From: Solirubrobacterales bacterium
GTDB lineage: Bacteria; Actinomycetota; Thermoleophilia; Solirubrobacterales; Solirubrobacteraceae
Reading direction: 5' to 3'
DNA length: 52,139 bases
Assembly (NCBI GenBank): GCA_027451345.1
Contig: DAIDJO010000130.1
Coordinates: 1 to 52,139 of the forward strand
Numbering within the stretch: position 1 is the stretch's first letter; every line of letters begins with the position of its first letter. This document shows positions 8,149-49,526 of the stretch, piece after piece. A program made the translations under genes and the position numbers. The notes under the pieces were generated by a model. The model searched no databases. It was not told the origin of the DNA and saw only the letters and a program-made list of their open reading frames with translations.

Positions 8149-9488
8149 GACCGCGAGACGGCGGAGCTGTCGAGCCGCTCGCCCAGGAGGCCGAGCAGGG
8201 CGCTCACCCGCGGCAGGGCCTCTCGCCTGACGGCGATGAGCTGCTCTCGCCCGCTGCGGCGCGTGCGGACCAGCTCGGCTCGCTCCAGCACCGAGACGTG
8301 CCGTCGCACCGTCGTGCGGTTGAGCTCGAGGCGTCGGGTGAGCGCCGAGATCGACTGCTCCCCCGCGGCCGCATGAACGAGGATGCGGCGGCGAGTGGCG
8401 TGGGCGAGCGCATGAAGGAACCGGTCCTCCGCCTCGTCGTCGAGCCGCGCCGCGTCAGCGCATGGCGCGGCCCCGTCCGGGCTCGGTGCGGGCAACGCCG
8501 CTCGCCCCCGCAGGAGCCGGCCGAGACGCTGGACCCCCGCGGATGTCACATCGTCGGAGGGCAGCCGAACGGTGGGCATTCCCGTGGCGAGCAGGATCGC
8601 GAAGTCGCGACGCCGGTCCTCCACGAACCGCTCACGGGTGCGATGGGATCCCCACCCATCGAGCTCGACGACAAGGCGCTGGTCCGGGAAGAGCGCGTCG
8701 ACGCGGTGGCCGGCGACGCCGACGTTGATCTGCGGAACGGGCAGGCCGTGGGCGAGCAGGAGCGGCAGGAAGCGGTCCTCCAGCTCCGATCGTGTCGGCT
8801 CGGGATGGGCGTGCTCGAGGTGTTCGCGCAGGAGTCTCGCCGACGGATGGGTGCGATTTCGGTCGACGATGTCCCCCAATTCGTCGAGGGTGAGCAGCCT
8901 GCGCAACCGGAGATCACTGACGGCTCGACCGAGTTGGGACGGGGAGAGCCGGCTCGCGGTGTCGAGCAACGTGCGCGCCGGGCTGGCGACACGCAGTCCC
9001 TGGACCACGCGGATGTCCGCGCGACGGATCGTCGTGATGCGGTGGACAACCAGCCCCGCGGGACGTCGATCGCCCACGATCAGCACCTCGAACCGCTCCG
9101 GCCAGCGTTTCCAGACTCCCCAGAGCACGAGCGCGGCGGCGCCGGTCAGCGCGGAGGGACGACCGGCGGCGAGAAGGGCCGCATGCGCCCGATCGATCGG
9201 GTTGGGGGATCGGTGGCCGACCGCGTACACGCCCCGGTGGACCCGGATCAACCGCCCGCGGGCGACCCAGTCGGTGATCGTGCGAGCGGGCACTCCCGCC
9301 TGCAGCAGTTGCGCCCGCGTGATGTGGCCGCCCTGCCGCTGGGCGAACCCGCGGACGTTGCGCGCGTATTCCTGCCTACTTCCTCCCGAGCCCGGAGCGG
9401 TCCCGACGCCGATCGGCGTCGGGACCGCTCCGGGCTGAGGAGCAGCCGTGAAGGGCAGATCGTCTGAGGGGGCGGCGACCGGTGGCAT
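8136..9488 (-). CDS. AbiEi-like winged helix, DUF559 nuclease-like and ArsR-like HTH fusion
   Basis: About 450 residues from ATG 9488. After a low-complexity leader, residues about 40-91 form the N-terminal winged-helix domain of AbiEi-type antitoxins (GGHITRAQLLQAGV, HRGVYAVG). Residues about 236-313 look like the DUF559/Vsr-like endonuclease fold (RVDALFPDQRLVVELDG), with Asp264 and Glu276 as plausible PD-(D/E)xK acids. Residues about 354-420 form an ArsR-like helix-turn-helix (HATRRRILVHAAAG, TVRRHVSVLERAELV). The first two domains together are common in this bacterial class; the extra C-terminal HTH looks unusual. No AbiEii toxin gene is adjacent. A 48-bp perfect palindrome lies inside the leader. 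The start is uncertain (an upstream ATG at 9584 is in frame). Confidence 0.75.
   Translation of the reverse strand: MPPVAAPSDDLPFTAAPQPGAVPTPIGVGTAPGSGGSRQEYARNVRGFAQRQGGHITRAQLLQAGVPARTITDWVARGRLIRVHRGVYAVGHRSPNPIDRAHAALLAAGRPSALTGAAALVLWGVWKRWPERFEVLIVGDRRPAGLVVHRITTIRRADIRVVQGLRVASPARTLLDTASRLSPSQLGRAVSDLRLRRLLTLDELGDIVDRNRTHPSARLLREHLEHAHPEPTRSELEDRFLPLLLAHGLPVPQINVGVAGHRVDALFPDQRLVVELDGWGSHRTRERFVEDRRRDFAILLATGMPTVRLPSDDVTSAGVQRLGRLLRGRAALPAPSPDGAAPCADAARLDDEAEDRFLHALAHATRRRILVHAAAGEQSISALTRRLELNRTTVRRHVSVLERAELVRTRRSGREQLIAVRREALPRVSALLGLLGERLDSSAVSRSQTR
9389..9436. repeat. 48-bp perfect palindrome inside a coding sequence
   Basis: Bases 9389-9410 are the exact reverse complement of 9415-9436 around a central GATC, so all 48 bases are palindromic. 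It lies in frame in the N-terminal leader of the AbiEi-like fusion gene, where it encodes PGAVPTPIGVGTAPG; being symmetric it encodes the same peptide on the other strand. In RNA it would form a 22-bp stem. It is not a typical terminator because it is near the 5' end of the gene and no T-run follows. No second copy was found in the window. Confidence 0.85.
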
Positions 9489-40855: not shown

Positions 40856-41673
40856 GCTGGGACGGAGCGGCCGACCCGGACCCAGTCTCCGTTCCGGACG
40901 CCCAGCCGCGCCGCCGCGCTCGCGCGGTTGCAGGCCAGGGCGAGCTGGCCCGTGGCGTCCTCGAGCACGAGCAGTTCGTGCTCGCCGACGTCGACGAAGG
41001 TGCGGGCCCGCTTGGCCGGATGGCGCTCGCCGGCGGTGTCGGTGAGCGCCAGCACGTCGCCGAGGTCGACGCCGAGCCCGTCCAGGTCGGACGGGGCGGC
41101 GGCGAGTTGCACGTTCCCGAAGCGATCGACGCCGACGACGCGCGCGATCAGGTCGCCATCCTCCACGCGGGCGGCGACACGCTCGAGCCGGATGAGCGTC
41201 TCGGGATCGAGGGCGACGCCGGCCGACTCGACGGGTTCCCCCGCCGCGAGGTGCGCCGCCACCGGGGCGAAGATGTCGCGTCCGTGGAACGTGGCCGCGA
41301 GCGGCTCGAGCCGCCAGCGCGAGCCGGAGATCTCCGCGGCGGCGGTCGCGCCACCACCGAGCTCGATCGCAGGCCACAGCAACCCGTTGTCCGGTCCGAC
41401 CAGCCTGCGCCCATCGGCCAGCCGCACGGCCACGGCCCGCCGATCGCCGCCGACGCCGGGATCGACGACGCCGACGTGCACGCCGACCGGCAGGTACGGC
41501 AGCGCGTGCGCGAGCATGGCCGCGCCGGCCGCGACGTCCTGGGGCGGCACCCCATGGCTGAGGTCGATCACCCGCGCGTCGGGACAGATCCGCGCGATCA
41601 CCCCGTGCAGGACGCCGACGAACTCGTCGACGAGGCCGTAATCGGTGAGGAGCGTGACGACGGGTGCGGTCAC
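40852..41673 (-). CDS. S-adenosylmethionine hydrolase (SAM hydroxide adenosyltransferase, DUF62)
   Basis: 273 residues from GTG 41673, overlapping the CobA-HemD stop. The N-terminal domain starts with TLLTDYGLVDEFVGVLHGVI, DLSHGVPPQDV and VVDPGVGG; the C-terminal barrel has DRFGNVQLA. This is the SAM hydrolase/fluorinase-like family, whose usual members use water to split SAM into adenosine and methionine. Fluorinase-type halide binding residues cannot be judged by eye. It sits directly after a SAM-dependent methyltransferase gene and is tightly coupled to it. Whether it clears SAM or by-products for tetrapyrrole methylation is unknown. Confidence 0.92.
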   Translation of the reverse strand: MTAPVVTLLTDYGLVDEFVGVLHGVIARICPDARVIDLSHGVPPQDVAAGAAMLAHALPYLPVGVHVGVVDPGVGGDRRAVAVRLADGRRLVGPDNGLLWPAIELGGGATAAAEISGSRWRLEPLAATFHGRDIFAPVAAHLAAGEPVESAGVALDPETLIRLERVAARVEDGDLIARVVGVDRFGNVQLAAAPSDLDGLGVDLGDVLALTDTAGERHPAKRARTFVDVGEHELLVLEDATGQLALACNRASAAARLGVRNGDWVRVGRSVPA

Positions 41674-47071: not shown

Positions 47072-47754
47072 CGGTACAGGCTCCCGAGCGTCGCCTCGTC
47101 GAGCCCGGCCGGGGGCCCGACGTAGACGGCCCGCCCACCGGAGAGGCCGAGCACGAGGGCGGCCTCGGCGAGCGCCGCGGACGGATCGTGGCTGGTGAGC
47201 ACCCGCGTGACACCGGAGGCTCGGCCGATGAGCGGCTCGACGAGCTCCTCGGCGGCGGGGTCGAGGTTCGAGCGCGGCTCGTCGAGCAGGAGGAGCTCCG
47301 GCCGGTGCAGCACGGCGCGCGCGACGGTCAGCCGCTGGACCATGCCTCGGCTGAGGGCCCGCACCGGGTCATCGGCCCGCTCCTGCATCCCCACCGCCAG
47401 GAGCACCTCCTGCACGCGCTCTGGCTGCACCCGGTGCAGGCGCGCGTGGTAGACGAGGTTCTCGCGCCCGGTGAGGTCCCGATACAGCAGCGGCTCGTGG
47501 CCGAGCAGCCCGACACGGCCACGGACCTTCCAGCCCTCCCGGGGGAGCGGCTCGCCGAAGAGCCGGACGGTGCCCGCGTGGGGCCGCAAGAGGGTGGCGA
47601 GGATGCGCAGGAGGGTCGACTTGCCCGCGCCGTTGCGGCCCAGGACGGCCAGCGTCTGACCGCGAGCGAGCCGCAGCGACACCTCCCGCAGCACGGTGCG
47701 CTCCCCGAAATGGCGGGTCAGGCCCTCAAGTTCGATGACGTTGGTGTCGTCCAT
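47068..47754 (-). CDS. ccmA: Cytochrome c maturation ABC ATPase CcmA
   Basis: 228 residues from ATG 47754. Walker A GRNGAGKS, Q-loop region LLGHEPLLYRDLTG, signature LSRGMVQR, Walker B LLLLDEPRSNLDP, H-loop TSHDP. The ALSRGMVQRL signature and the short length match CcmA. Its start lies 29 bases inside the mogA gene, on the same strand, so it is translated from a site within that coding region (GGGAAG ends just before the ATG). First of the ccm genes in this operon. Confidence 0.92.
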   Translation of the reverse strand: MDDTNVIELEGLTRHFGERTVLREVSLRLARGQTLAVLGRNGAGKSTLLRILATLLRPHAGTVRLFGEPLPREGWKVRGRVGLLGHEPLLYRDLTGRENLVYHARLHRVQPERVQEVLLAVGMQERADDPVRALSRGMVQRLTVARAVLHRPELLLLDEPRSNLDPAAEELVEPLIGRASGVTRVLTSHDPSAALAEAALVLGLSGGRAVYVGPPAGLDEATLGSLYR

Positions 47755-48217
47755 CTTCCCGGTGCAGTGTCGCAACCGCGTGCTTGAGCACCGGTTCCAC
47801 CACGGGGAAGAGCTGTCCGATCGACCGGGGGCTTCCCGGGAAGTTGATGATCAGCGAGCTGCCGGCGACGCCCGTCACGGCCCGTGAGAGCATCGACATC
47901 GGCGTGTACCGCAGCGACTCGGCTCGCATCGCCTCGGCCAGGCCCGGCACCTCGCGCTCGATCACGGCGCTGGTCGCCTCGGGGGTGACGTCATCCGGGG
48001 TCAGGCCGGTGCCGCCGGTGGTGAGGATCAGCTCGACGCCCTCCCGCACCCGAGCCCGGAGCCACGCCTCGATGGCGGCGCGATCGTCCGGCAGCACGTC
48101 GTGCGCCAGCACCTCGGCCCCGGCTCGGACGGCCGCCTCGGCGAGCGCTGGGCCGGAGCGGTCCTCCGCGTCGCCCGCGGCGGTGGTGGTCGAGATGGTG
48201 AGGATCGCCGCGCGCAT
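47726..48217 (-). CDS. mogA: Molybdopterin adenylyltransferase (MogA/MoaB-like)
   Basis: 163 residues from ATG 48217. MoCF_biosynth fold: AAILTISTT at the N-terminus, LILTTGGTGLTPDDVTPEAT (the GGTG loop that binds molybdopterin) and SLIINFPGSPRSIGQ (PGSP loop). Adenylates molybdopterin before molybdenum insertion, or is the MoaB paralogue. It overlaps ccmA by 29 bases and probably heads the cytochrome/heme operon. Upstream is the 295-base gap with repeated TGGCAA/TTGCCA boxes. A second molybdopterin gene (moaC) is 2.7 kb upstream on the same strand. Confidence 0.9.
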   Translation of the reverse strand: MRAAILTISTTTAAGDAEDRSGPALAEAAVRAGAEVLAHDVLPDDRAAIEAWLRARVREGVELILTTGGTGLTPDDVTPEATSAVIEREVPGLAEAMRAESLRYTPMSMLSRAVTGVAGSSLIINFPGSPRSIGQLFPVVEPVLKHAVATLHREDGRHQRHRT

Positions 48218-48512
48218 GCTGGGGCGAGCGTATCTCCAGGCGACCCGACGCGCCCGCCGGAAGGCGCCCGACCGGGCGGGGATCGGCGGTCGCGATCCGC
48301 GCGGACGCGACCGGACCTGTCCGATGTGGCAATCCACCACGGGCTCCGGCCAACTTGCCACCCAGGCGCTGCTCTGCGTGCCTTCTGTGGCAATGTGCCG
48401 CGGCGGGCGGTGATTTGCCACATCCGACAGGTCACCGGGGCCGGGCAGACGGCTCACCCGGGGCGGGCTGACCGCTCAGCGGCGCCGGTCGGCTGACACG
48501 TCGCCGGAGCGC
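48218..48512. other. 295-base intergenic region with four TGGCAA/TTGCCA boxes
   Basis: Between mogA and the SDR gene. Four boxes related to TGTGGCAA alternate in orientation: TGTGGCAA (48325-48332), CTTGCCAC (about 48353-48360), TGTGGCAA (about 48386-48393) and TTGCCACA (48415-48422). The outermost pair extends to 17-base arms (48316-48332 against 48415-48431) with one mismatch. No reading frame of note lies here. It could be the mogA promoter/operator region, a folded RNA leader, or a small RNA. No -10/-35 pair is convincing. Confidence 0.55.
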
Positions 48513-49526
48513 TCACACGCCCACGGCGCGGAGCCAGTCGAGGGTGGCGGCGAGCCCCTCGGCATACCCGACGCGTGGCTCCCAGGCGAGCAGCTCCCGG
48601 GCCCGGCGGTTGCTGAAGCTCTGGTCGATCCCCATCACCTGGACGGCCTGGCGCGAGAGCAGGGGGCGCGTGCGCAGGCCGGTCATCCGGCGCAGCGACC
48701 GGTAGCCGTGCTCGAGGCCGACGGCGAGCGGGACCGCCATCCGGTACGGGAGGCTCCACCGGACGCGCGGGCAGCCGAGTCCGTCGGCCAGGTCGTCGAC
48801 GAGCTCCCGCCAGCTCACCTCAGTCCCGTCCGCGACGTTGAGGACCGCCCCGACGGCCGCCGGCTCGACCATCGCCCGCACGGCGGCGTCCACCAGGTTG
48901 TCGACGAAACAGAGCCCGGCGACCGCCCGGCCACCGCCGATCAGCACCATGTGCCGGCCGCGGATCGCCCGTGCGATCTCCAGCACGACCTCCCGCGAGC
49001 CGGGGCCGTACACCGTGGCGGGGCGCAGGATCACGGTGGGCAGCCCACGCGTCGCGGCGACGCGCCGCACCTCGACCTCGGCCCCGAGCTTCGTCTGCGC
49101 GTACCAGTTGCGGAATGACTCCGGGCGGCGCGTCTCCTCGACGCCGCGGCCACCCGGGTGGCCGTACACGTCGGGGCTCGAGATGTGCACGAACCGTTCG
49201 ACCCTCGCCGCGGCGCTGCATTCGAGCAGGACCCGCGTCCCGTCGACGTTGACCCGCCGCACCTCGCTCGGCAGCGCCCAGTCGGTGACCATCGCCGCGC
49301 AGTGCAGCACGTGCCGGCTGCCCTCGACCGCCCGAGCCAGGCTGGCGGGATCCGTCAGGTCACCGACGCTCAGCTCGACGCCGAGCGCGGCGAGCGCGTC
49401 GGTGTCGGCGGAGGCACGGACGAGGCAGCGGACGCGGTGCCCGTCCCGCACGAGCGCTGCGACGAGCCGGCCCCCGATGAATCCGGTCCCGCCGGTGACG
49501 AGGGTGAGGCCCTCGCCGTCAGCCAC
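48513..49526 (-). CDS. Extended SDR, 3-beta-hydroxysteroid dehydrogenase/OleD-like
   Basis: 337 residues from GTG 49526. TGGTGFIGG (10-18) binds NAD(P); the active site has SSPDVYGHPGG and Tyr/Lys in YAQTKLGAE; RPATVYGPGSR follows. The C-terminal half resembles the 3-beta-HSD/2-alkyl-3-oxoalkanoate reductase group (RWSLPYRMAVPLAVGLEHGYR), enzymes that act on lipid-like or steroid-like ketones, rather than nucleotide-sugar epimerases. Its start overlaps the aminotransferase stop by eight bases, so the two proteins are probably partners acting on one substrate. Product unknown. Confidence 0.85.
   Translation of the reverse strand: MADGEGLTLVTGGTGFIGGRLVAALVRDGHRVRCLVRASADTDALAALGVELSVGDLTDPASLARAVEGSRHVLHCAAMVTDWALPSEVRRVNVDGTRVLLECSAAARVERFVHISSPDVYGHPGGRGVEETRRPESFRNWYAQTKLGAEVEVRRVAATRGLPTVILRPATVYGPGSREVVLEIARAIRGRHMVLIGGGRAVAGLCFVDNLVDAAVRAMVEPAAVGAVLNVADGTEVSWRELVDDLADGLGCPRVRWSLPYRMAVPLAVGLEHGYRSLRRMTGLRTRPLLSRQAVQVMGIDQSFSNRRARELLAWEPRVGYAEGLAATLDWLRAVGV

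Follow-up and report, generated by a model that had tools for sequence, protein, structure and literature searches.

A palindrome upstream of mogA in a Solirubrobacterales bacterium is probably a dispersed copy of the operator of an AbiEi-like/nuclease-like protein

The question raised by this locus is whether a conspicuous palindrome in front of a mogA-like gene belongs to that gene or to something encoded elsewhere. The window, that is, the whole stretch of DNA analyzed, comprises 52,139 nucleotides of a soil bacterium of the Solirubrobacterales (assembly GCA_027451345.1, contig DAIDJO010000130.1). The initial annotation described in it four boxes of alternating orientation upstream of mogA and proposed a two-hairpin RNA leader of the mogA/ccm/hem operon, a small RNA, or an operator array. 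The four boxes are present at the described positions, and the outer 17-base arms (48316-48332 and 48415-48431) do pair with one mismatch around an 82-base loop. The palindrome is larger than first described: the boxes are its most conspicuous portion, and as a whole it is a near-palindrome of 120 bp (48314-48433). We conclude that this feature is probably a dispersed copy, standing alone, of the operator of a trans-encoded AbiEi-like/nuclease-like protein, in a system that resembles the repetitive extragenic palindromes (REPs) and their REP-associated tyrosine transposases (RAYTs) and is made of unrelated parts.

On either strand, the 120 bp fold as a single long hairpin (-78.2 and -74.9 kcal/mol; z-scores of -6.9 and -6.1, with none of 200 shuffles equally good). 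Matches to TGTGGCAAT with at most one mismatch occur three times in the window, all inside the element, against 2.5 expected; single boxes are at chance frequency, and it is their arrangement that is not due to chance.

The element belongs to a repeat family. The genome of the window, which is 85% complete, holds two more diverged copies when searched with the element itself. An 18-base arm pattern with up to three mismatches gave 15 matches in this genome versus none for the reversed pattern; 13 of these fall in nine near-complete copies, and the other two (contigs C14 and C16) are chance-like. A covariance model built from the nine copies located 11 full-length places, all of 119-120 nt, of which only those on C63 and C93 are new, as the other nine are the training set of the model. 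This first model scores the window copy at 97.5 and 72.8 bits on the two strands, the copy being part of the training set, and a refined model (R2), trained without the window copy, still detects it at 76.1 and 75.5 bits. The genome search that the initial annotation had suggested thus returned the same box arrangement 11 times.

Across relatives, BLAST was insufficient and a covariance model was needed: one copy searched against 40 relatives gave credible matches in its own genome only, those in G012 and G040 being chance-like, and the first covariance model detected, elsewhere in the genus, elements that have the same length and another box sequence. A gap-free alignment was obtained for 20 elements from five genomes, all exactly 119 nt long, which is partly a matter of choice, as only elements of that length were admitted and one of the 21 then known (L041 of G007) was omitted. 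Among 99 collected elements, 66 measure 119 nt and 23 measure 120 nt (89 of 99 together). The four boxes alternate in orientation, with symmetry centres at 30, 60, and 90 and a 60-bp period, from which a layout of [24]-11-[24]-1-[24]-11-[24] follows. Pairing as a full hairpin is found in 67.2% of cells versus 33-40% when the alignment is slid, and as two hairpins in 74.1% versus 29-40%, while the 11-base spacers are paired in only about half of cells. Box positions therefore change together across relatives, which is the covariation that had been proposed as a check. Boxes within one element tend toward a common sequence, and that sequence varies between genomes. With R2 (E ≤ 0.01), the architecture of about 119 bp occurs in 16 of the 28 genomes of the genus among the matches listed, beyond which further weak copies exist. 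When stricter filters were applied to 201 genomes across the order, ten had elements, namely eight of the genus (own genome included) and two of other genera of the family.

Does the repeat have a partner? When the predicted genes around 50 element loci were clustered, one family alone recurred at more than two loci, at five loci in five genomes, although two of these (G000 and G006) have another neighbour gene in common and may be orthologous. Homologs of this gene are present in all 28 genomes of the genus, usually several per genome. From more than 150 listed matches, 30 homolog loci were kept, one to two per genome; at 12 of the 30, in 11 genomes, the protein homology starts within 0-3 nt of an R2 element (best-strand E ≤ 2.2e-4). 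One further locus has an element about 21 bp away (E 0.0038), and two more have weak abutting matches (E 0.11 and 0.91). R2 detects one element per gene locus, on the upstream side, though a diverged downstream copy could escape it. The protein conservation RGxG[DE]xE[VI]xRLA starts right at the end of the element, so the true start codon possibly lies inside it. Some lower-scoring paralogues are preceded by other inverted-repeat arrays when inspected by eye, and others by none. G006 holds two gene-linked elements of different sequence type, L146 (G006:C189) and L118 (G006:C260). The gene-linked protein genes of L127 (G005:C337) and L144 (G021:C446) are interrupted, by an in-frame TGA and a split frame, respectively; the L127 gene is broken although G005 has 17 listed solo copies, and parents may decay after spreading. 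Homologs of the protein also occur on contigs labelled Gemmatimonadota/Gemmatimonadetes (L154, L162), by transfer or mis-binning.

The partner protein is predicted to have two parts. Pfam matches comprise AbiEi_4, DUF559, and MTES_1575, several of them below the curated cut-off; AbiEi_4 exceeds the cut-off in the G000 and G006 proteins, and the three other proteins scanned have a sub-threshold match or none. An AlphaFold2 model of the protein on contig C55 of the window's own genome was obtained with a predicted local distance difference test score of 88.5 and a predicted template modelling score of 0.70. In this model, residues 3-196 resemble the AbiEi antitoxin 6y8q (Z 13.0), with Rv2827c (1zel) matching over a similar range (Z 10.1), and residues 205-302 resemble the catalytic domain of the homing endonuclease I-Bth0305I (3r3p, Z 13.3), followed by a putative endonuclease (3hrl, Z 12.9) and Vsr (1cw0, Z 11.0). 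A likeness to TnsA was set aside, as its Z of 6.2 only is within the range of common arrangements. Residues E208, D235, E246, D248, and H253 are invariant in all 17 aligned sequences and may correspond to the EDxHD set. As modelled, the protein thus resembles an AbiEi antitoxin in its N-terminal part, with a winged helix and a second domain, and a Vsr/EDxHD homing endonuclease in its C-terminal domain.

Copies lacking the gene (solos) were compared with the gene-linked copies by outer-arm identity over 48 positions, using 87 solos and 12 gene-linked elements from 11 genomes. Left out were G007, G018, G019, G022, G023, G057, and G165, which are without an R2 gene-linked element, and the partial match G017:C243. 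The 87 solos represent 86 distinct ones, because one place in G005 was counted at two contig ends. Solos are identical to the gene-linked copy of their own genome at 34.1 of 48 positions versus 24.7 of 48 for those of other genomes, a mean that none of 2000 label permutations reached, and 65 of the 87 match their own genome's gene-linked copy uniquely best. A tblastn search with nine partner proteins, within 1.2 kb or to the contig end, matched at none of the 87 solos and at all 12 gene-linked copies; judged by sequence, the solos are neither decayed genes nor remnants of lost ones.

The same pairing of gene and repeat occurs in mycobacteria with another palindrome type. An inverted repeat scoring at least 12 was found in 31 of 75 regions upstream of homologs on named contigs, versus 6 of 139 upstream of other genes and 3 of 375 shuffles. 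These 75 regions, from 80 loci (L177, L182, L184, L186, and L206 were omitted because the match starts late or is unplaceable), are not independent, as four repeat genes of G006, G024, and G043, and many mycobacterial ones are orthologous to each other. A first palindrome type has 39, 57, and 91 arm matches in the three genomes whose gene carries it versus 0-1 in nine others, and a second has 54, 22, 35, 20, and 12 in five genomes of the same or a near type versus 0-2 in nine others; reversed arm controls gave none throughout. All 23 mycobacterial palindromes caught by a pattern in the fetched loci, some of them at orthologous sites, are 53 bp long. In the Mycolicibacterium-type genomes G209-G211 (L279-L298, L309), they often abut stop codons, the TA preceding the element and its first G forming TAG, sometimes on both sides between convergent genes. 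In several copies (L279, L284, L292, L295, and others), the inner segment of one arm is inverted (GATTTTC for GAAAATC), as if flipped.

Individual sites differ between sister genomes. Three palindromes in a 13-kb stretch of G211 were looked for in the corresponding regions of G209 (about 92% identical) and G210 (89-93%). All three palindromes are absent at the orthologous places of G209, and two are absent from G210, where the third place is not comparable as the left neighbour gene is missing. One site of G211 is a clean empty site in both other genomes, for which a gain in G211 is the simpler reading. The second and third L309 palindromes did not qualify as clean empty sites, as other sequence is found there in G209 and a hairpin-like one at the second in G210. 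The orthologues of L309 near 6758 (L312, L313) carry another hairpin-forming sequence with the motif GTCTGCTCGCG at this 3' end, and the motif recurs in L314 and L315 near the third site, possibly as a separate repeat family.

The positions of the copies bear on what else they could be. Neighbouring genes, here as in the clustering of element loci and in the mycobacterial count, were called by a simple codon-bias gene finder. Both neighbours were called for 72 solos, and the flanking genes are convergent at 27 of them, co-directional at 40, and divergent at 5. Control gaps of at least 60 bp in the same loci (n = 42) are divided into 3, 16, and 23, and all other gene pairs there (n = 95) into 13, 58, and 24, in the same order. 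Among the remaining solos, 13 are at contig edges, and two of the 87 overlap a predicted gene. In one case, two solos that differ in their termini share the interval between a pair of convergent genes, 101 bp from each other (G005:C176, L054; 9699-9817 and 9919-10037). If the solos were true operators, the AbiEi-like protein would control a regulon with mogA or the epimerase gene among its members. The operator geometry of the gene-linked copy, and the boxes mostly kept in solos, would suit such a role, but the solos avoid promoters, with 5 of 72 lying between divergent genes versus 23 of 42 control gaps, and the mycobacterial palindromes behave alike: none of the 23 lies between divergent genes, 4 of 23 overlap a predicted gene, and 14 of the 19 with called neighbours sit at most 10 bp from a stop codon. 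As some sites also vary between sister species, we consider a regulon unlikely.

Gene 3'-end positions and strong folds on both strands would equally be expected of hairpins maintained by the host as terminators or mRNA stabilizers, kept for their fold as RNA, with the nuclease gene merely carrying one; that one orthologous site in sister genomes holds a different hairpin-like sequence also favours this possibility. It leaves unexplained, however, the adjacency to one gene family, the kinship with the gene-linked copies, and why a palindrome type is absent where the gene has another type, and we regard it as distinctly improbable. Still less probable is an ordinary miniature inverted-repeat transposable element (MITE) of an unrelated insertion sequence, placed before the partner gene by chance. 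The elements are short, palindromic, mostly intergenic, and without noted coding content, and one empty site exists; against this, of the gene families predicted within 1.5 kb of the 50 loci, the AbiEi/nuclease fusion alone recurs at more than two, the close adjacency is seen in 11 genomes with different sequence types, and single-column base counts of the tabulated flanks (46 mycobacterial, 172 Solirubrobacterales) gave no consistent target duplication. A TA duplication in mycobacteria, where 12 of 46 flanks end in TA, is not claimed because these bases are also present at the empty site. The clustering of the 50 loci gave no recurrent transposase-like neighbour family; whole genomes were not searched for transposases.

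At the window locus itself, nothing points to an RNA leader or small RNA of the mogA/ccm/hem operon. Among 12 orthologue loci of the neighbouring epimerase gene, mogA adjoins in G006 only, where the gap is at most about 37 bp and without the element, versus 295 bp in the window; G006 is not a close relative (62% protein identity). No Rfam family matches the element, and a local leader, small RNA, or riboswitch was rejected as the search yielded two chance matches only (E 7-8, far below gathering scores). Although the element lies before mogA and folds well on both strands, its ten further genomic places, its absence from the G006 gap, and the lack of an Rfam match make a structured leader or small RNA the least credible explanation. 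The earlier idea of an operator array holds in kind, as the architecture is that of AbiEi-family operators and the gene-linked copy on C55 directly precedes such a gene; it fails for the mogA/ccm/hem operon, the window copy being one of ten solos in varied gene contexts.

Coordinates of the element, its repeats, neighbouring genes, and related features (window positions unless contig C55 is given)
Feature	Position	Strand	Remarks
Solo copy, 119/120-bp four-inverted-repeat palindromic element	48314..48433	.	Covariance-model match on both strands; fold z-score
Inverted repeat 1	48314..48337	+	Terminal motif GACCTGTC; box TGTGGCAA at 48325-48332; register set by ungapped alignment of 20 other elements
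Inverted repeat 2, degenerate	48350..48373	-	Box TTGCCA at 48355-48360
Inverted repeat 3	48375..48398	+	Box TGTGGCAA at 48386-48393; 61 bp after repeat 1
Inverted repeat 4	48410..48433	-	Box TTGCCACA at 48415-48422; terminus GACAGGTC
mogA-like gene (Pfam MoCF_biosynth)	47726..48217	-	Start 96 bp from element; neighbour only
NAD-dependent epimerase-family gene	48513..49526	-	End 79 bp from element; neighbour only
Own-genome gene-linked pair, protein homology	C55:8469-9380		
Own-genome gene-linked pair, element	C55:9381-9499		Directly before gene
Window paralogue, AbiEi_4-type open reading frame with C-terminal ArsR-like helix-turn-helix	8136..9584	-	
Perfect 46-bp palindrome, 5' side of window paralogue	9390..9435	.	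Arm twice, inverted, 0 mismatches

The window also holds a paralogue of the AbiEi part of the partner family with a palindrome of a different kind, which is a small further illustration of the gene-palindrome pairing. Its homology to the fusion-protein profile covers 8556-9362 (E 2.0e-53, profile 6-281), with the palindrome near where this homology starts, and no Pfam DUF559 match was found at E ≤ 0.01. The arm of its palindrome has no further copy in the window except one match with two mismatches at 41577.

How could an operator become dispersed? The AbiEi part would bind the four inverted repeats of about 24 bp and repress its own gene; the nuclease part may nick or cut the bound palindrome, or a target, and repair would then copy the palindrome into new intergenic sites, mostly at gene 3' ends. 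The dispersed repeat is probably spread by the nuclease. With the operator copied by its partner protein, the solos would be non-autonomous REP-like elements maintained by that protein, and not regulatory parts of mogA. The wider proposal is a selfish REPtron-like class independent of HUH transposases, in which an antitoxin-type repressor joined to a homing endonuclease uses its own operator (two or four AbiEi-type repeats) as the mobile unit copied to gene 3' ends, with binding specificity and repeats co-diversifying across Actinobacteria; for this proposal, we see the balance as even.

Several observations weigh against reading the element as a dispersed operator of the partner protein. In the kinship comparison, the gene-linked copy of the same genome is not the unique best match for 22 of the 87 solos (G017, 10 of 15; G005, 4 of 17; G006, 3 of 11; G021, 2 of 5; G014, 1 of 12; and the one solo each of G012 and G020, with a tie between these two genomes). 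The homolog is present in every genome of the genus, while refined-model elements were found in 16 only, among the matches listed, and in G057 the order is different, with the element about 100 bp downstream of the homolog's 3' end and not before it. On the far side of the gene, R2 detected no second element; the only other matches are weak, partial ones (E 0.63-0.91) inside one gene. Upstream of homologs, 44 of the 75 regions score below 12, so that the pairing is either not universal or too diverged to be seen. At the clean empty site, no target-site duplication is evident, and loss in two genomes is also possible because both empty sites keep GGGA, the end of the element; other mycobacterial sites are common to sister genomes (L284/L285/L298, L287/L289, and L294/L311). 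The association could, in short, be autoregulation alone, with another agent doing the spreading.

The pairing reaches beyond this locus. Palindromic repeats of Thermoleophilia and mycobacteria gain a named partner and a likely origin, and the DUF559/AbiEi protein family, with its homologs throughout the genus genomes searched, gains a testable function. Should the nuclease indeed spread its own operator, the REP/RAYT problem would have been solved a second time by unrelated means, and the case would illustrate the conversion of a transcription-factor site into a mobile element. Protein-binding sites dispersed in this way could be misread as regulons, terminators, or RNA leaders.

Among known systems, the operators of the AbiEi family (S. 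agalactiae abiE and M. tuberculosis Rv2827c-Rv2826c) likewise consist of paired inverted repeats of about 23 bp directly before the gene of an AbiEi-fold protein. The published account reports for Rv2827c a binding site of four 23-bp inverted repeats arranged as two pairs, located between -1 and -131 relative to the start codon of its own gene; the gaps are 13 bp inside a pair and 4 bp from one pair to the next. For the AbiEi of S. agalactiae, it reports two bound 23-bp repeats separated by 3 bp (PMC7319586). In geometry, the gene-linked 119-bp elements correspond to the four-repeat arrangement and the mycobacterial 53-bp palindromes to that with two repeats. Unlike these systems, the present protein adds a homing-endonuclease-like domain, as predicted, and the present operator is dispersed over the genome. 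I-Bth0305I and Vsr, of the EDxHD type, are like the partner protein in its predicted C-terminal fold; the present domain differs in being fused to a complete AbiEi-like part and linked to a non-coding palindrome. A published description of a palindrome paired with a DUF559/AbiEi gene was not found in the literature searched, which is weak evidence, as most subscription papers lay outside the search.

MITEs of the ERIC (enterobacterial repetitive intergenic consensus) and Correia type are roughly 100-160 bp long, ERIC being about 127 bp. The MITE literature describes ERIC, Correia, and other prokaryotic MITEs as short palindromic repeats that are normally intergenic (PMC10969869). The present elements are likewise short, palindromic, and mostly intergenic, but their four-box architecture is near-constant at 119 bp, the box sequence varies by genome, and a partner gene is identified. 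REPs with their RAYT/TnpA-REP genes (REPtrons), described in the REP/RAYT literature as co-evolving palindromes with a dedicated enzyme, resemble the present system in several respects: palindromes are dispersed and mostly intergenic, their type follows one dedicated nuclease-like gene with apparent co-diversification, and they are present in many copies, here 11 in the window's own genome and 12-91 arm matches per genome in the eight mycobacterial genomes of matching or near types. In contrast to REPtrons, the protein is an AbiEi-like/Vsr-like fusion and not an IS200/IS605-type HUH transposase, the element is symmetric and 119 bp (or 53 bp) long, and the hosts are actinobacteria; two inverted REPs flank the REPtron gene, whereas here one copy precedes it. 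Because enzyme and flanking arrangement differ, the present system is not a member of the REP/RAYT group, and these gene-and-repeat pairs of actinobacteria seem to be an independent counterpart to REPs and the enzymes that go with them.
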